Of a stretch of 48,800 nucleotides of DNA, positions 5,902 to 48,800 are shown one piece after another. Position numbers and translations under genes: made by a program. Every line of letters begins with the position of its first letter. The stretch's first letter is position 1. The stretch is from Syntrophorhabdaceae bacterium (GTDB taxonomy: Bacteria > Desulfobacterota > Syntrophorhabdia > Syntrophorhabdales > Syntrophorhabdaceae). The stretch covers positions 1 through 48,800 of the forward strand of contig DATKMQ010000068.1 in NCBI GenBank assembly GCA_035541755.1. Direction: 5' to 3'. The notes below the pieces were generated by a model. It searched no databases and was not told where the DNA came from. It saw only the letters and a program-made list of their open reading frames with translations.

Positions 5902-6677
5902 AATACACAAAGAGACGAAAAGGCAAAGGGATCTATCTGCTTCCCAATCTTTTGACCTCTATCAGCCTGCTCGCCGGTTTCTATGCAATCGTGACGGCCA
6001 TGGACAGGAATTTTGCCTATGCCGCGTATGCGATCTTTGTATCCTGCCTTTTCGACATGCTCGACGGCAGGGTCGCGCGACTTACCCATTCGAGTAGCAA
6101 ATTCGGTGTGGAATACGACTCACTCTCTGACCTCGTGGCCTTCGGCGTGGCCCCGGGCGTGCTCGTCTATCTTTGGGCGCTGAAAAGCTATGGCAAGTTC
6201 GGCTGGCTCGCCGGTTTTCTCTATGTGGCCTGCGGCGCCGTCAGGCTTGCGCGGTTCAACATACAGGTCGATACTGTCCAGAAGAAGAGCTTCCTCGGTC
6301 TTCCCATACCGGCCGCCGCGGCAACAATTGCGGGCAGCGTGCTCTTTTACGCATGGCTCGAATACAAGGGCATGTTCAAATCAACCTTGATCCCGATACT
6401 CGTCTACGCACTTGCATTCCTTATGGTCAGCAACATCCGTTATTTCAGCTTCAAAGACATGCGTTTCTTTAAGGAAAAACCCTTTCGCTCAACCGTGGCA
6501 GCAATAATACTGCTTGTCATCATATTGAGCGAGCCCAAGATTACCCTTTTTGTGGCGACCCTGGGCTACGCTTTGTCAGGACCAGTCTATTCGCTTATTT
6601 TAAAAGTGAGGAAACCGGTGACTGAGGACGCTACCCATCCGCGAGAAACCTCAGCAGATCAAGGTGCTCGTCTATAG
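5898..6677 (+). CDS. pssA: CDP-diacylglycerol-serine O-phosphatidyltransferase
   Basis: This 259-aa multi-pass membrane enzyme makes phosphatidylserine from CDP-diacylglycerol and serine, supplying Psd, the neighbouring gene. The CDP-alcohol phosphatidyltransferase signature is complete: D56-G-x2-A-R, eight residues, G-x3-D-x3-D (DGRVAR ... FGVEYDSLSD). LPNLLTSISLLAGFYA at the N-terminus and about six to eight hydrophobic helices are typical of the type II PssA family. ATG overlaps the psd stop (ATGA). The last 47 bp overlap the convergent HAD gene on the other strand. Confidence 0.96.
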   Translation: MKYTKRRKGKGIYLLPNLLTSISLLAGFYAIVTAMDRNFAYAAYAIFVSCLFDMLDGRVARLTHSSSKFGVEYDSLSDLVAFGVAPGVLVYLWALKSYGKFGWLAGFLYVACGAVRLARFNIQVDTVQKKSFLGLPIPAAAATIAGSVLFYAWLEYKGMFKSTLIPILVYALAFLMVSNIRYFSFKDMRFFKEKPFRSTVAAIILLVIILSEPKITLFVATLGYALSGPVYSLILKVRKPVTEDATHPRETSADQGARL

Positions 6678-7272
6678 CACCGTCCGCTTCGAGGCCCTGA
6701 TTCTTATAAGCGATAAATTTGACACCGGCCGCCCTCGCCGTACCCCTGTCAACCTCTGAATCGCCCACATAGAGCACCCGCTCACGGTCCATCTTCATTA
6801 CATCGAGGATCTTCTCCACGCTCTCCGGATGGGGCTTGGGATTTTCCACATCCAGAGCGGTCACCACCATGTCAAACCACTTATTGAGACCGAACGCCTC
6901 CATAATGTGTTTCATGGTGGTGGTTCTGTTCGTGCTGATGGCGAGCTTCACGCCCCGCTCTTTGAGAGCGGCCAGTGTTTCCGTGAGGTGGGGCTCCATC
7001 TTGAGATAGACGATGAAATCCATAAAGTTTATGCTGCTCTTCCAGAAGGCAACGGCCCCCTCTTCTTTGTCAGAGGTGTCTTTAAAAACATAATGGATCG
7101 ATTCGTAGACCGTATGAGCGTGGCAGTAATGGGCCTCTTCATCGGTAAGCGGTGCTCTTCCCTGAGATTGGGCGATATAATTGTAGAGCATTCTATTCTG
7201 CTCGAAAGAATCAAAAAGCACCCCGTCACAATCGTAGATCACGCAGTCGATATCCCATTTCTTTGTTTCCAT
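6631..7272 (-). CDS. HAD-family phosphatase (phosphoglycolate phosphatase-like)
   Basis: This protein of about 213 aa has the four HAD motifs: I, DCDGVLFDS (nucleophile Asp); II, STN; III, the Lys in NPKPHP; and IV, GDSEVDRGTA. The helical cap between motifs I and II fits subfamily IA (Gph/PGMB type). The substrate is unknown. ATG 7270-7272 is preferred because GGAG lies 9 nt upstream; an in-frame TTG at 7287 would add five residues but would use that GGAG as codons. It converges on pssA with a 47-bp overlap, with no room for a bidirectional terminator. Confidence 0.88.
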   Translation of the reverse strand: METKKWDIDCVIYDCDGVLFDSFEQNRMLYNYIAQSQGRAPLTDEEAHYCHAHTVYESIHYVFKDTSDKEEGAVAFWKSSINFMDFIVYLKMEPHLTETLAALKERGVKLAISTNRTTTMKHIMEAFGLNKWFDMVVTALDVENPKPHPESVEKILDVMKMDRERVLYVGDSEVDRGTARAAGVKFIAYKNQGLEADGAIDEHLDLLRFLADG

Positions 7273-7439
7273 ATGCACTTTCTCCAAACGCTTTTTTTCT
7301 CGCTGTTTTAAACTCTATTTAAAAAAAAATCAAGCAAAAATGGGTGCGACGCCCGACTTTGCAGAGCGTTAAATCGTCTATCGCCTGCACTTAGGCTTCA
7401 CGCATGCAAAATTTTAGTTTTAAATGCCTCAAGATATGG

Positions 7440-7475
7440 TACAATGGGTGTGGCAAATAAGAACAGGAGGTTGTA
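7440..7475 (+). promoter_or_regulatory. Candidate -10 box and ribosome binding site for the soluble phosphatase gene
   Basis: TACAAT at 7440-7445 is a 5 of 6 match to the -10 consensus, about 30 nt before the ATG at 7476. No good -35 box is 17 nt upstream. A strong AGGAGG is located 6-7 nt before the ATG. The divergent gap 7273-7475 is AT-rich with a run of nine A at about 7320. Confidence 0.4.
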
Positions 7476-7946
7476 ATGATAAGTGTTTCCATTCCAGGAT
7501 GGGGAGATCTTGATATCGAATATCTTGTTGTGGACTATAACGGGACATGCGCTTTTGACGGCAAAATAAAAGAAAACGTAAAAGAAATGCTGGAGAAGGT
7601 GTCCCGGTACATCAAGGTCTTTATTATCACATCCGACACGTACGGCAATATTGACAGCGAAGGTAATACCATAGGGTTCAGCATAATCAAAGTCGGAAAA
7701 GAGGCAAGCGGTCAGGAAAAAGCGAAGATCATACGGGAGCTTGGACCGGAAAAGATCGTGGCCATAGGCAACGGGGCCAATGACGTTCTCATGCTCAGGG
7801 AAGCATCGCTCGGCATCGGCGTAATCGGCGGTGAAGGCTGTTCAAAAGATGTACTCAAAGAAGCTGATTTTGTGGTCAACAATATTCTCGATGCCCTAAG
7901 CATTCTTCTGCACCCTGAAAGAATCGTCGCGACATTGAGAGAGTAA
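7476..7946 (+). CDS. Soluble HAD phosphatase of the P-type-ATPase-like group (COG4087 type)
   Basis: This 156-aa protein has HAD motif I in an unusual form, VDYNGTCAFDG (residues 19-29), close to the DKTGT phosphorylation loop of P-type ATPases. Motif II is ITSD, a Lys lies in the GQEKAKI region, and motif IV is GNGANDVLML. There are no membrane helices, so it is a stand-alone soluble P-domain relative; such proteins are conserved in anaerobes and archaea but have no settled function. AGGAGG precedes the ATG. It lies 65 nt upstream of secA on the same strand, with a hairpin between them. Confidence 0.8.
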   Translation: MISVSIPGWGDLDIEYLVVDYNGTCAFDGKIKENVKEMLEKVSRYIKVFIITSDTYGNIDSEGNTIGFSIIKVGKEASGQEKAKIIRELGPEKIVAIGNGANDVLMLREASLGIGVIGGEGCSKDVLKEADFVVNNILDALSILLHPERIVATLRE

Positions 7947-42998: not shown

Positions 42999-44072
42999 AT
43001 GGTGGCAAAATCCGACAACAAATCCATCCAAATAACAGACGAGCGTGAGAGGGATTTCTACATCGCCCAGCGCGATCTTGTAGACAGGGCTGGAAGAATA
43101 ATTGGCCCGTTCGGCTGCGCCGTGTACAATAGCCTCCTGAGGCACGCGGACCAAGACCGCGAATCCTGGCCGTCCCTTGCCACCATAGCTGACGAGTTCG
43201 GCATGAGCAAGCCAACAGTCATAAAGGCAATCGAACAACTGCAAGAAGTTAACATAATCCAGATCGTCAAGAGAAAAGACCGCCGTGGCAACAAGTACCG
43301 CCTCATCGACGCAAAGCAGTGGAAACTTCCCGAACCGGCCGGAACAGTAAACGTGGTTGACCGTTCTTCTCATGGAACAGTAAACGTGGTTGACCGTTCT
43401 TCTCATGGAACAGTAAACGACATTGACCGTTCCGCGAAAAGAACAGTAAACGTGGTTGACCCGAAGTATATAAAAGAATCTTTAAAAGAAAAAACACTCT
43501 CGCGCGAGAGCGATGAAAAAAATGTGGATTACCAAACCGCGATAAAAAATCGCCTTGCACCGTTTGACCCCGAAACTCGAACCACGATCAAAGCGTTTCT
43601 CGACAACGTAAAGGATCACAACAAAACAGGGCGTATGAAAGATAGTCGTTACCTGTCCTTGCTTGACCAGGTGATTGAGATTGCACGAAGCACGGAAAAA
43701 GACGTATTCAGGTATGCACTACAAAAAGCCACCGACAAAGAAGCGTACAGCCCGAACTACGTCAAAGTCGTAGCTGAGGCAAAGAAAGCCGAGGCAAAGC
43801 CGCCGCTCTTCGTTGACAGAGGTCCCGAGCTTGATGGCAAGAAGTACATCGTCTATGGCGGGATGGAAAATCATGACGGAAAAGTCGTAAAACCCGTGAG
43901 CGCGGAATACGTGATGAAAGCTTTCAAGGTAGACCCGACAGAGTGCTTTATCGAGAGTGCACGCGCGCCGCTCAAAACCAAAGGCGTGGATGTCTCGCAG
44001 TACATCCATCTGCGCCCACAACACAACGGTATCTACGATCTGCAGAAAGTCCTGCAGGAAGGGAGAGCATAG
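42999..44072 (+). CDS. Phage winged-helix (HTH_36-type) protein, replication-initiator-like
   Basis: This 357-aa protein has an N-terminal winged-helix domain (about residues 35-108): GPFGCAVYNSLLRHAD, SWPSLATIADEFGMSKPTVIKAIEQL and the wing KDRRGNKYRLI. Phage replisome-organiser and regulator proteins have this fold. Residues 115-155 are four 11-residue repeats (TVNVVDRSSHG-type) encoded by iteron-like DNA. The rest is soluble, with helix-rich and Lys-rich segments. AGGAG is located 5 nt before the ATG. It opens the phage gene run, 91 nt from the attachment scar. Function as replication initiator is inferred from domain and iterons. Confidence 0.65.
   Translation: MVAKSDNKSIQITDERERDFYIAQRDLVDRAGRIIGPFGCAVYNSLLRHADQDRESWPSLATIADEFGMSKPTVIKAIEQLQEVNIIQIVKRKDRRGNKYRLIDAKQWKLPEPAGTVNVVDRSSHGTVNVVDRSSHGTVNDIDRSAKRTVNVVDPKYIKESLKEKTLSRESDEKNVDYQTAIKNRLAPFDPETRTTIKAFLDNVKDHNKTGRMKDSRYLSLLDQVIEIARSTEKDVFRYALQKATDKEAYSPNYVKVVAEAKKAEAKPPLFVDRGPELDGKKYIVYGGMENHDGKVVKPVSAEYVMKAFKVDPTECFIESARAPLKTKGVDVSQYIHLRPQHNGIYDLQKVLQEGRA
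43341..43462 (+). repeat. Four tandem 33-bp iterons inside the winged-helix gene (candidate phage origin)
   Basis: Copies lie at 43341-43373, 43374-43406 (identical), 43407-43439 (diverged in middle and end) and 43440-43462 (truncated). The shared core GAACAGTAAACGTGGTTGAC is an imperfect dyad: GAAC-n-GT-n-AAC reads toward its reverse GTT-n-AC-n-GTTC. Repeats are in frame (33 nt = 11 codons), so they also lengthen the protein. The arrangement parallels lambdoid origins, where iterons lie within the initiator gene. Confidence 0.8.
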
Positions 44073-45213: not shown

Positions 45214-46032
45214 ATGCAGAACATCCCCGATCGCACCGACGCCATCCTGAACAATCTTGAAGTCGGCAAACTCGCCAAACCCAAGATGTACAATAACCTC
45301 CTAAAAAGGGTCAATTCCGGCGAGGTCCTAACCAAGAAAGAGCTTGAGACCTTCGAAGCTCTCGATACGGAACTCAGGGCAATGTACCTTCCGCACCTTC
45401 CGGACCAGACGGCCCCTAAAAAGCCGGAGAAAGAAGCACCCGACAAGTTTGAAAGCGTGCTCAAAGTCGAGAAACACCTCACCGAAAAAGGATGGAAGGT
45501 AAAGAAGTCGGCTCTCTATAACGCAGTCAAAGCCCACAAACTGATACCCGACGCTCGCGGTCATTTCACTCAGGCCGAGGTCGACCGCTATGCCCTCGCC
45601 AATCTCAAGAAAGCCGATGGTTCGATCCCCAAGGAGCAGCTCTCCGAGGCCGACAAGATCGCCATGGAAGCGGCTGACGCCCGCCGTCGCCGTGAACTCG
45701 CCCAGGCCGCGATCCTCGAGAGTAAACTTGCCACCCTTCAGGGGTCTCTTGTGCCCCGCTACCTCTTTGAGACGGAGCTCGCCGCCCGGGCCGTTGTCTT
45801 CCGTTCCGATGGCGAGAACTTCTTCCGCTCTCAGGCCGCAGTGATCGTCAACGTGGTCTCCGGAGATCCGGCCAAGATCCCCGACCTAGTCGCCTTCTGC
45901 CTGGAGGCGTACGAGCAGCAGCTCGCCCGCTATCTCCAGGAGGAAGAATTCAAGGTGGATGCGTCCGTCTATGAGCGAATCTTCGAGAAAGCAGGCAAAG
46001 ATGAACAGGACCGCGAGGAGATCGACGGGTGA
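45214..46032 (+). CDS. Terminase small subunit candidate (Nu1-like)
   Basis: This 272-aa protein directly follows the zinc-ribbon stop (TAGATG) and ends overlapping the large terminase start. Residues about 75-125 (FESVLKVEKHLTEKGWKVKKSALYNAVKAHKLIPDARGHFTQAEVDRYA) resemble a Nu1-type winged helix that chooses a site on DNA, and the remainder is helical and Arg/Ala-rich (ADARRRRELAQAAILE). Small terminase subunits bind cos or pac sites and load the large subunit. Its position next to the GpA terminase supports this; sequence similarity alone is weak. Confidence 0.6.
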   Translation: MQNIPDRTDAILNNLEVGKLAKPKMYNNLLKRVNSGEVLTKKELETFEALDTELRAMYLPHLPDQTAPKKPEKEAPDKFESVLKVEKHLTEKGWKVKKSALYNAVKAHKLIPDARGHFTQAEVDRYALANLKKADGSIPKEQLSEADKIAMEAADARRRRELAQAAILESKLATLQGSLVPRYLFETELAARAVVFRSDGENFFRSQAAVIVNVVSGDPAKIPDLVAFCLEAYEQQLARYLQEEEFKVDASVYERIFEKAGKDEQDREEIDG

Positions 46033-48188
46033 ACGCTGCCTCCTCTTCCCCCTCCGCCCTTTCCGCTAACTCCCCCTTCGCCCCTTCTTCCCCCTTGGCC
46101 TCTTCCCCCGCCGCCTCTTCCTCCTCCGCCCTTTCCGCCGCCTCCCCCTTGGCCTCTTCCCCCGCCCTCTCGCTTCCTCCCTCCATCCGCTTCACCGAGG
46201 GCGAGCGCCGCGCATTCCGGCCGCGCGAGATCGATCCCCGCACAGGCCGCCCGCTCACGGTGTCGCAATGGGCCGAGCGCTACCGCATGGTGACAGACGG
46301 GAACCTCAAGGGCCGCTGGCAAAACATCAATTCCCCCTACGCCGTCGAGATCATGGACCTCTGGACAGCCCCGCATGTCCGCGAAATCTACGTCTGCGCC
46401 GCCCCGCAAATCGTGAAGACGCAGATCGCCTTCAACTGCATGGGCTATTCCATCGACCAGGATCCCGCCGGCATCATGTACACCATGCCAGACGAGAAGA
46501 CCACGAAACGGATCGCCCGCACGCGCATCCTTCCCATGATCAAGGCGACGCCCCGCCTGGCGGAACTCCTCTCGCCGCGCTACGACGACACGACCACGCT
46601 CGCGATCCGCTTCAAAAACGGCGCCGACATCATCATGGCCTGGGCCACCTCAGTCGCAGAGCTTTCCTCAGAGCCGCGCCGCTACGTCATCGGCGACGAG
46701 GTGAGCAAATTCCCCGGCTACGCCTCCGGGCAGAATAAGAAAGAGGCCTCCCCGATTGATCTCATGCGCGCCCGTCTTAATTCATACACCTACACGAGCA
46801 AAGCACTCTTTCTCTCTTCGCCCGGCGAGGACCCCTGCGCCATCACGGATCTCATGCACTACCATGCAGACGAAGTCCGCCGCCTCCAGGTCCCGTGCCC
46901 CGTCTGCGGCTATTGGCAGATCCTCGATGATGATCACATCGTCATTCTCCAGAACGCCGGCGACCCCCGCATCATTCTCCGCGACAACCTGGCCCGCTAC
47001 GCCTGCGACAAATGCGGAATGTACTGGGACGACTACATGCGAGTCCGCTCCATCCGTGCCGGCCAATGGGTATCAGGGCAATTCGACGAGGATGGTGAGT
47101 GGCATCCGGCCCCGCGCCTCTTGCGCCCCCTCGCCGTGGCCTTCCACCTTCCGAGCTGGTACGGGGTAAATACGCTCCTCTCGCGTGTGGCAGCGGCGAA
47201 AATACGTGCCAACGACGGGCCCGTAAAAAGACAGGTCTATGTCACCCAGCACAAAGCCGAACGCTACAAGGAAATCATCGAGACCAAGAAGGAATCAAAA
47301 CTCCTCGAAGAGCACAGGACCACTCTCCCCTCGCAGATCGCCCCCGCAGACGCCCTGACCCTTGTTGCCGCCTTCGACTCGCACACCTGGGGATATCGCT
47401 TTGCCGTGTGCGCCGCCGTTGAGGGTGCGCTCGGCTTTACGCTGCAAAAGATCCATCACGGACATCTCGGCACGCTCGCGGACGTGGAGAATCTCATTTA
47501 CCGCGTCCGCTACCCGGTAGAAAATTCTGTCGAGACTATGGGCATCTTCCGCGCCGCCATCGACACCGGCGGCAACCGGCCCGGCTCCGGCGAGACGGAC
47601 GCAGAAAAGACCATGACCTCGGAGATCTACGAATGGCTCCGCAAACAGCCCCGCACAGGCCTCATCACCGGCATCAAGGGCGCCTCGCGCGATCAGATCA
47701 AGGGCGTGAAACCGACGACCATCGACTCCTTTCCGCATTCAAACAGGCCCATCCCCGGAGGCCTGGAGCTGCGCCTCATCGATACTGGCCGTTTCAAGGC
47801 CTGGCTTCATTGGCGGTTTACCCGGGGTCCGAATGAGTCGCAGCGGGTCCTCTTCGATGCGGATACGGACAACGACTTCGTCCGGGAACTTTTAGCCGAG
47901 GAGCGTCAGAAACGGCACGGCCGCATACAGTGGGTCAAGGTCCGTTCGGCCAACCATTACCTCGATTGCATGGTCTACTGTCTCGCCATGATCGACAGCG
48001 AGTGGCACCCGGCGCTCAAAATCATGAGCCCCTTGATCAAGCAGAAAAGAATGGCCCGAATAGCATCCGCTTCCGCTCCAGTCCCAATGCCCGCGCTTGG
48101 GCAACAGCAAAACGAATTGAGACTATACCAGGATCGCCGCGATATGACGTCCATCCGCGAGCGCCTGGCCGACAGATTCAATAGGTAG
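46029..48188 (+). CDS. Phage terminase large subunit (GpA family)
   Basis: This 719-aa ATP-driven packaging motor and nuclease belongs to the lambda GpA family. The first 45-50 residues are a Ser/Ala/Pro low-complexity tail; the family part starts at PRTGRPLTVSQWAERYRMV. The ATPase has an altered Walker A, AAPQIVKTQIAFN (usual GpA form QxGKT), and Walker B RYVIGDEVSKFP. A zinc pair CPVCGYW and CDKCGMY follows, then the nuclease domain with AAFDSHTWGYRFAVC and FRAAIDTGGNR. The start is GTG 46029, overlapping the upstream stop (GTGA). The tail could also be trimmed by an internal start. Confidence 0.92.
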   Translation: MNAASSSPSALSANSPFAPSSPLASSPAASSSSALSAASPLASSPALSLPPSIRFTEGERRAFRPREIDPRTGRPLTVSQWAERYRMVTDGNLKGRWQNINSPYAVEIMDLWTAPHVREIYVCAAPQIVKTQIAFNCMGYSIDQDPAGIMYTMPDEKTTKRIARTRILPMIKATPRLAELLSPRYDDTTTLAIRFKNGADIIMAWATSVAELSSEPRRYVIGDEVSKFPGYASGQNKKEASPIDLMRARLNSYTYTSKALFLSSPGEDPCAITDLMHYHADEVRRLQVPCPVCGYWQILDDDHIVILQNAGDPRIILRDNLARYACDKCGMYWDDYMRVRSIRAGQWVSGQFDEDGEWHPAPRLLRPLAVAFHLPSWYGVNTLLSRVAAAKIRANDGPVKRQVYVTQHKAERYKEIIETKKESKLLEEHRTTLPSQIAPADALTLVAAFDSHTWGYRFAVCAAVEGALGFTLQKIHHGHLGTLADVENLIYRVRYPVENSVETMGIFRAAIDTGGNRPGSGETDAEKTMTSEIYEWLRKQPRTGLITGIKGASRDQIKGVKPTTIDSFPHSNRPIPGGLELRLIDTGRFKAWLHWRFTRGPNESQRVLFDADTDNDFVRELLAEERQKRHGRIQWVKVRSANHYLDCMVYCLAMIDSEWHPALKIMSPLIKQKRMARIASASAPVPMPALGQQQNELRLYQDRRDMTSIRERLADRFNR

Positions 48189-48194
48189 GGAACA

Positions 48195-48467
48195 TTGGCA
48201 CAGATGGAAAGAGGATTTGCCGCTGAAGATATGCTCACAACGAAAGACGAAATCAAGGTTGCATTCAACCTGTCGGAATACATGTTCTGGGAATTCATCG
48301 AGCAGGGAATGCCGGCTGTCTATCTTAAGGGACGCTGGTCCGCCTCCATCCGGGCAATCAATGACTGGTGGCGTAATTCGAGGAACGTCCAGATGCGCGG
48401 CATGATCAAAGAGATCCGCGCGGACGAAGAAAAAAACGCTACTTTGGAAAATCGCCCGCAGCGATAG
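48195..48467 (+). CDS. Small HTH-like phage protein, 90 aa
   Basis: This 90-aa protein has a likely helix-turn-helix core, LTTKDEIKVAFNLSEYMFWEFIEQGMPAVYLKGRWSAS, followed by a charged helix. It resembles excisionase/Nu1-like DNA-binding modules (the wing KGRW is typical), so it could be a small packaging or regulatory protein; family membership is unsure. The start is TTG 48195 with GGTAGGG 4-5 nt upstream; ATG 48204 is the alternative. It follows the terminase by six nt. Confidence 0.6.
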   Translation: MAQMERGFAAEDMLTTKDEIKVAFNLSEYMFWEFIEQGMPAVYLKGRWSASIRAINDWWRNSRNVQMRGMIKEIRADEEKNATLENRPQR

Positions 48468-48513: not shown

Positions 48514-48621
48514 AAATAAAAAACGGACAGCAGTCCAGGGAGTCCTAGCTCCCTTAGACCATGCGCTTGCAACGCATGACGGGAAACCCGCTACCGTCCG
48601 CATTTCGCTTTAGCCGGCGAG
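48514..48621 (-). ncRNA. Candidate tRNA-like cloverleaf RNA with its own U-tract
   Basis: On the minus strand a 77-nt element (48600-48524) folds into a closing stem CGGACGGTAG/CTGCTGTCCG (10 pairs, two G-U) and three hairpins: CGGG-TTT-CCCG, ATGCG-TTGCAAG-CGCAT (a 7-nt loop with T33 and a GCA, Cys-type, anticodon) and GTCT(A)AGGGAG/CTCCCTGGAC. All three non-Watson-Crick sites are G-U on this strand but A-C on the other, which favours minus-strand RNA. TTTTTTATTT follows (48523-48514). T8-A9-like TA is present after seven pairs, but the T loop is CTAGGA, not TTCRA, so it is not a normal tRNA. Confidence 0.5.
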
Positions 48622-48627
48622 TGCGAC

Positions 48628-48656
48628 ATTGTATCAGGGAGACTCGTCAAGGTCAA
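48628..48656 (-). promoter_or_regulatory. Strong extended -10 promoter driving the cloverleaf RNA
   Basis: TTGACC (48656-48651) and TACAAT (48633-48628) lie exactly 17 nt apart on the minus strand, and TGA just before the -10 makes it an extended -10. Transcription should start near 48621, about 20 nt before the cloverleaf. It points away from the plus-strand phage genes, so its only evident target is the RNA. Confidence 0.65.
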
Positions 48657-48670
48657 GGGAGGAGGGCTCC

Positions 48671-48800
48671 TTGAAAGCAATCTCAAACCGCATCACAAAG
48701 ACCGATCTTATTCCGTGGAGAGATCTCAAATGGTTCCATACTGACCTAAAGAAACTCTCTGGTGCGGCGTTTGAGAAGCTCAAGCAATCCCTGGTTTCCA
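48671..48800 (+). CDS. Start of a further phage gene, truncated by the window edge
   Basis: An open frame begins at TTG 48671, five nt after GGGAGGAGGG, and runs to the edge (43 codons, no stop). The product starts MKAISNRITKTDLIPWRDLKW and continues LKKLSGAAFEKLKQSLV. The ISNRITKTDLIPW and EKLKQSL spacing resembles the N-terminus of ParB-like/Spo0J domain phage proteins that join a DNA methylase, but too little is visible to name it. Confidence 0.5.
   Translation, partial: MKAISNRITKTDLIPWRDLKWFHTDLKKLSGAAFEKLKQSLVS

Follow-up and report, generated by a model that had tools for sequence, protein, structure and literature searches.

What is a cloverleaf doing on the minus strand beside phage terminase genes? 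An earlier note on the window (the whole stretch of 48,800 nucleotides analysed here) had described at this place a self-contained transcription unit made of an extended -10 promoter (TTGACC-17-TACAAT), a leader, a cloverleaf and a U-tract, all of which can be read directly from the sequence. The description leaves the function to be explained. Is there really a structured RNA, and which strand encodes it? Is it a degenerate tRNA-Cys? Does it take part in packaging, as the pRNA of phi29 does? Or is it a regulatory RNA, and of which gene? The key feature for answering these questions is absent from the earlier note: one arm of the RNA, the hairpin P4, is a copy of the ribosome-binding region of the neighbouring gene.

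The RNA element of the window

The features to which the text refers are the following; the promoter elements and the U-rich tract are given as they read in the sequence.

46029..48188, plus strand: terminase large subunit, GpA type, in an operon that runs towards the RNA and the divergent ORF
48195..48467, plus strand: 90-aa ORF that separates the terminase from the RNA; locus L005 has an ORF in this position with 47% identity to it
48514..48523, minus strand: U-rich tract after P1
48522..48602, minus strand: structured core, a perfect four-way junction of P1-P4, supported by covariance-model matches, alignment, covariation and a fold z of -5.1
48523..48532, minus strand: 3' strand of P1, pairing with 48592-48601
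48533..48559, minus strand: P4 hairpin, whose 5' arm, loop and 3' arm are a copy of the translation-initiation region (TIR) of the divergent gene
48560..48578, minus strand: P3 hairpin, whose stem varies with compensation and whose loop (TTGCAAG in the window) is not conserved
48579..48591, minus strand: P2 hairpin, GCGGG-TTT-CCCGT, near-invariant across the family, with 100% of alignment cells paired
48603..48627, minus strand: RNA leader, variable in length across relatives
48628..48636, minus strand: extended -10, TGATACAAT; most relatives have a -10 of the TGCTAC/TGATAC type
48651..48656, minus strand: -35 of the RNA promoter, TTGACC
48651..48673, plus strand: TIR of the divergent ORF, GGTCAAGGGAGGAGGGCTCCTTG, with the Shine-Dalgarno (SD) at about 48657-48666 and the start codon TTG at 48671-48673
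48671..48800, plus strand: first 43 codons of the divergent ORF, the rest being cut off by the contig end

In the promoter, TACAAT (48633-48628, minus strand) is preceded by TG and separated by a 17-nt spacer from TTGACC (48656-48651), whose complement, GGTCAA, lies directly 5' of the SD of the divergent plus-strand ORF. The closing stem has 10 bp (48601-48592 with 48532-48523) and contains exactly three G-U pairs, the number that the earlier note had given for its imperfect pairs, and P4 has a small internal bulge. Folding bears out the claim that the minus strand encodes a structured RNA: this strand folds at -48.3 kcal/mol (z = -5.1, none of 200 shuffles being as good) and the opposite strand at -33.3 kcal/mol (z = -2.4). 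Together with P1, the U-rich tract possibly forms an intrinsic terminator. The tract claimed earlier is there in the window, but a long run of U following the closing stem distinguishes this copy, and most relatives have a weak or pyrimidine-rich stretch instead.

Three hairpins and a 7-nt loop with GCA are what would make one think of a tRNA. That the element is no ordinary tRNA had been recognised from the start, and it agrees with ARAGORN, which reports 0 genes, and with the Rfam tRNA model, which does not match even at E<=10. A degenerate or divergent tRNA, tRNA-Cys included, is hardly credible either: the element is without the GG of the D-loop, a T-loop, CCA and an acceptor discriminator pattern, the supposed anticodon loop is variable in relatives, and P4 tracks the TIR of the neighbouring gene.

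An RNA family outside Rfam 15

Is the cloverleaf peculiar to this phage? It is a member of a real RNA family outside Rfam 15. The host genome holds a second copy, 76% identical and adjoining uvrB, and the pattern GGTAGCGGG...CCCGTCATGCG led to two viral contigs. A first covariance model, built from these four (the window, the second host copy and the two viral contigs), detected the RNA in 9 of 46 genomes from this order. A looser pattern picked out 34 stretches, 21 viral and 13 from genomes, of which the covariance model confirmed most, and a second model, made of 30 members, found the RNA in 7 of 395 genomes of the phylum and in 5 of 296 of the Nitrospirae phylum. More than 40 distinct members come from Syntrophorhabdia, other members of the same phylum, Nitrospirae and many IMG/VR phage contigs; the titles of public records with members name Syntrophorhabdus sp., other Deltaproteobacteria and one Nitrospirae MAG. 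Uncultured sediment bacteria are the hosts of many phages with the RNA. Used as a DNA query against known phage and plasmid records, the element gave no real match. No Rfam 15 family matched the element in searches of the window and 18 further loci at the gathering score, of eight loci at E<=5 and of the window at E<=10; apart from chance-level matches, these searches returned only an ordinary tRNA elsewhere in L005, at 7063-7152.

Some chromosomal copies are orphans that keep an intact fold, such as the one in C87 by uvrB. In the host chromosome they are found at C87:2888-2968 (L004, adjoining uvrB) and C83:14312-14394 (L021); these two have a common upstream block, TTAAGTTTT...GCCGAT, and no modification gene.

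Covariation was counted over 30 aligned members in an alignment that was not fitted to the structure. The perfect four-way junction consists of P1 (11 bp), P2 (5), P3 (6) and P4 (about 10); in most members every base at the junction is paired. Changes on both sides occur at 14 of 32 pairs, in 73 cells, and none of 500 shuffles matches this; the stems are thus kept by compensatory changes, the property on which the earlier note had made its reading depend. Of all cells, 95.0% are paired, compared with 87.7% in shuffles (0 of 500 as high) and 40-53% with slid partners. Four pairs of P3 have changes on both sides. Its loop is variable in length and sequence across the 30 members and the GCA 'anticodon', to which attention had been drawn, is not conserved. 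P1 and P2 are nearly invariant in sequence and their G-U pairs are kept: a tandem U-G/G-U in P1 is UG at columns 7-87 in 29 of 30 members and GU at columns 8-86 in 29 of 30, the window having C-G/G-U at this site. Because these G-U pairs are conserved, the minus strand is the functional RNA strand.

Gene neighbourhood and promoter

Which genes does the RNA keep company with? In most members a tail or tail-fibre operon ends on one side of it, and on the other side is a D12-class adenine methylase gene (PF02086), which is transcribed away from the RNA and in the same direction as the upstream operon. The gene order in the non-orphan loci inspected is operon, anti-RNA stretch and modification gene, with the RNA encoded opposite the leader of the putatively regulated gene. 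The association is also found from the other side. When the search started from the methylase, 15 of 24 viral relatives carried the RNA by the covariance model, and at least two further methylase relatives (L080 and L088) have a cloverleaf of the same fold and unlike sequence.

Other genes can stand at the place of the methylase. In L006 a DAM-like-phage1 plus GNAT protein is followed by a ParB-like gene; L005 and L030 have a small ORF and a ParB-like protein beside the RNA, followed in L005 by a TET-associated (TAGT) glycosyltransferase; and L036 has a small ORF and then an N6_N4_Mtase. The DAM-like-phage1 and GNAT domains of L006 are fused (6394-7698, the ParB-like gene being next), possibly as a Mom-like modification module, and the L005 module of small ORF, ParB-like gene and TET-associated glycosyltransferase (255-2051) suggests DNA hypermodification. 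The divergent ORF of the window weakly matches the ParB-like protein that occupies the corresponding position in a related phage (43% over 35 aa, E = 0.003, one record); its 43 codons matched no PHROG and no phage record, and BLASTP against the homologue in L005 gave no match. The window's operon of TerS, TerL and the 90-aa ORF is common to L005. Two minor observations concern other genes of the window: the predicted N-terminus of TerL (46029-46200) is of low complexity, rich in Ser, Ala and Pro, and the true start may be further in; and a replication initiator gene at 42999-44072 has tandem repeats coding for GTVNVVDRSSH.

What does this leave of the link to packaging? A structured phage RNA near packaging genes, as the window has, recalls the pRNA of phi29, and the terminase does adjoin the RNA in the window, L005 and L036. 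These are the only three loci where the RNA is 'beside the terminase', as the earlier note put it. Because the neighbours in most loci are tail genes and the D12 methylase, the closeness to the terminase is incidental. Chromosomal orphans exist as well, no pRNA model or other Rfam 15 family matched, and no likeness to pRNA was found in sequence or structure. The guess of a packaging RNA is thus close to refuted by the gene contexts, and we give it next to no weight.

The RNA has a promoter of its own across the family. Of 39 distinct loci with a neighbour gene, 29 have a -35 and an extended -10 within 115 nt upstream of the RNA, compared with 0.7% of dinucleotide shuffles, and the remaining loci mostly have -10 variants of the TGCTAT type. 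The distance from the -10 to the element ranges in relatives from 13 to 48 nt (median 25), and the promoter abuts the SD of the divergent gene. The extended -10 motif is missing from L004, L021, L040 and L067, loci without a modification gene as neighbour. In several loci (L012, L013, L014, L025 and others) a palindrome, TCAAA-N5-TTTGA, lies over the -35, and the same loci have a GGG...CCC palindrome in the promoter spacer; these palindromes are possible operators or leader hairpins.

P4 as a copy of the neighbour's translation-initiation region

The TIR of the divergent gene recurs in the 5' arm and loop of P4, with letters that are not the same from one phage to the next. The shared stretches are TGGAGAGGTGCGACT in L065 and TTAGGGAGGCTCAAA in L042 (15 nt each), GGGAGGTCGCAC in L069 (12 nt), GGAGGGCTAAC in L013 (11 nt), GGAGGGTCG in L080 and GGGAGGGCGC in L088. 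Over 33 loci the longest shared stretch has a mean length of 8.6 nt, compared with 6.15 nt for permuted partners (z = 10.4, 0 of 5000 permutations). The copy persists when the loci are thinned to representatives of <85, <78 and <72% identity (0, 0 and 8 of 20000 permutations), the last set comprising 7 representatives, and in this test the P2/P3 part has no excess likeness to the TIR. The bases of the P4 loop have no partner within the RNA, and for this reason the RNA's own fold cannot account for their likeness to the TIR.

Could the two repeats have been kept alike by the replication machinery rather than by function? P4 and the TIR are inverted repeats about 100-130 bp apart, on which template switching or gene conversion might act, and the RNA would then act in trans through P1/P2, a thought to which the orphan chromosomal copies with their intact fold lend something. 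We regard this explanation as improbable: the spacing is long for quasipalindrome correction, the likeness is confined to P4 and absent from P2/P3, and even in the dissimilar variants L080 and L088 it spans exactly the SD to the start codon.

With what, then, does the TIR pair? Direct pairing of the RNA with the TIR was no better for own pairs than for permuted ones, and the idea that the RNA itself acts as antisense to the TIR was rejected. The complement of P4 on the plus strand, here called anti-P4, gives another result: the duplex of TIR and anti-P4 has a mean energy of -24.1 kcal/mol, compared with about -18.0 for permuted partners (0 of 20000). When read-through leaders are folded, the probability of pairing between SD and anti-P4 averages 0.78 and exceeds 0.5 in 28 of 33; the folds of L011, L019, L064 and L081 have no such pairing. 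The duplex of the window reaches -39.3 kcal/mol, lower than all 6935 other plus-strand segments of the window that were compared and than all 2000 shuffles, and the minimum-free-energy fold of its read-through leader is predicted to bury the SD and the start codon.

A proposed translational switch

How could such a copy be used? Regulatory RNA, one of several alternatives listed earlier, has become the best reading, and we see an even chance, on the strength of modelled pairing and gene order, that the ~80-nt phage RNA family is an antisense-encoded translational switch for the adjoining DNA-modification gene. The small RNA would be made from its own extended -10 promoter, divergent from the modification gene; the regulated gene would usually be the D12 adenine methylase and, in the sub-group of the window, a ParB-like or hypermodification gene. 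No promoter can be seen for the modification gene itself; its transcription would come from the phage operon beyond the RNA gene, a dependence on read-through that we deduce from the gene order only. The resulting mRNA would then contain a stretch complementary to the RNA, with anti-P4 ahead of the TIR. In the off state anti-P4 would pair with the TIR, hiding the SD and the start codon. The small RNA, which is complementary to the leader over its full length and has a TIR copy in P4, would compete for anti-P4; the presumed outcome is a lock that is changed or removed (the on state), or processing by RNase III. Our proposal of a lock within the sense leader, with the small RNA as its competitor, is based on the strong duplex of TIR and anti-P4, the paired SD and the buried start. 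The analysis shows the structure of the RNA and its conservation, the association with modification genes, and the TIR copy with its co-variation; that both RNAs are transcribed, that the lock forms in vivo and that the small RNA's effect has the direction given here is what we infer.

More tentatively, and with a chance that we put somewhat short of even, this would be a new RNA class: a junction scaffold with near-invariant P1/P2 and an exchangeable TIR-copy arm, forming a two-state switch that times phage DNA methylation or hypermodification, and spread across phages of Desulfobacterota-like bacteria and Nitrospirae. Counting against the switch, the conservation of P1/P2 exceeds what a pure antisense role needs, and it suggests a protein partner or some other role.

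The main rival takes up this point. It holds that the RNA is a decoy or mimic: a phage or host protein would bind the TIR hairpin of the modification mRNA, as Com does on the mom mRNA of Mu, and P4 would titrate or deliver that protein, P1/P2 being the conserved docking part. The near-invariance of P1/P2 fits such a part. The likeness of P4 to the TIR goes beyond the SD, with gaps (on the start-codon side CTCCCTTGAA vs CCCATGAA), some TIRs can fold into a mini-hairpin like P4, and in phage B3 the D12 dam is immediately preceded by a Com gene. The decoy also stays open because a test of pairing against identity, in which 13 differences between P4 and TIR were G-U-compatible and 21 were of the A-C type, did not favour pairing. 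We nevertheless find it unlikely: the shared stretch differs between phages, even close relatives, so that the specificity of the protein would have to shift each time; the neighbour genes are of several unrelated kinds; and the loci inspected have no Com-like gene beside the RNA.

Might the RNA act in trans on other mRNAs, the modification gene merely adjoining it? It has its own promoter, orphan copies exist, and many phage sRNAs do act in trans, for example VpdS of VP882 (PMC12197685). The tight linkage to modification genes across unrelated phage contexts and the specificity of the TIR copy for the neighbour gene argue against it. The P4 of an orphan, compared with its own host genome, matched exactly only itself, with near matches no more frequent than in a reversed-pattern control; it thus has no perfect second match there. 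A trans-acting sRNA seems to us a quite marginal prospect.

If the switch reading holds, it brings a testable rule, namely that P4 must match the neighbour's translation start. To our knowledge, how phage DNA-modifying enzymes are kept off until late is known in detail for little beyond mom of Mu; the family suggests a purely RNA route to such late control, repeated in unrelated phages. The RNA could also serve to find modification modules, among them ParB/glycosyltransferase hypermodification modules without a methylase. It is unusual for an RNA arm to co-vary with a ribosome-binding site of the other strand, and this should be of interest to RNA and phage biologists alike.

Comparison with known systems

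In Mu, the late DNA-modification gene mom is under translational control through the Com protein. The present arrangement resembles com-mom in that a phage DNA-modification gene is putatively controlled in translation at its TIR, and several relatives have the methylase at the right end behind the tail genes, which is also where mom lies. It differs in that control in Mu is exerted by a protein, while the candidate regulator here is a structured RNA from the opposite strand with a copy of the TIR; B3 has Com and then the D12 dam, and no Com-like gene was seen next to the RNA in the loci inspected. RNAI of ColE1 and other cis-encoded antisense RNAs of plasmids, IS10 and phages are rich in hairpins and pair fully with the leader on the opposite strand. 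The present RNA is likewise encoded opposite a leader to which it is fully complementary; unlike these classical antisense RNAs, it has a closing helix, a perfect four-way junction, near-invariant P1/P2 and an arm that duplicates the downstream TIR. Weinberg et al. are said to have described in 2017 a metagenomic D12-methyl RNA motif, whose name reflects its occurrence with genes for D12-class methylases; provided that Rfam includes this motif, it differs from the present family, as the loci tested match no Rfam 15 family. For an exchangeable arm that copies a TIR we know of no precedent. RNA antitoxins of the AbiF/RCd22 type are also structured prophage RNAs beside the gene they control; they are active in cis and in trans and work by binding the toxin protein (PMC12373285). 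The present case differs: the opposite strand carries a DNA-modification gene next to the RNA, and what ties the two together is that the RNA reproduces the TIR sequence of this gene.

Do characterised phages with a D12 dam have anything comparable? In VP882, phiHAP-1, KS9, B3, MuM16-1, S1, TJ1 and Aval the TIR-copy arrangement was not significant over nine loci. The first six of these (L102, L110, L104, L103, L101 and L109, respectively) have a gap of about 135-155 nt before the D12 dam (before com in B3), and these gaps contain strong opposite-strand hairpins unlike the cloverleaf. GGCTCAC is common to the gap and the dam TIR in VP882, MuM16-1 and L089, again without significance over the nine loci. 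In Pseudomonas phage Bise (L106, 46-1077), the gene immediately 5' of the D12 dam has an annotation as reverse transcriptase family protein.
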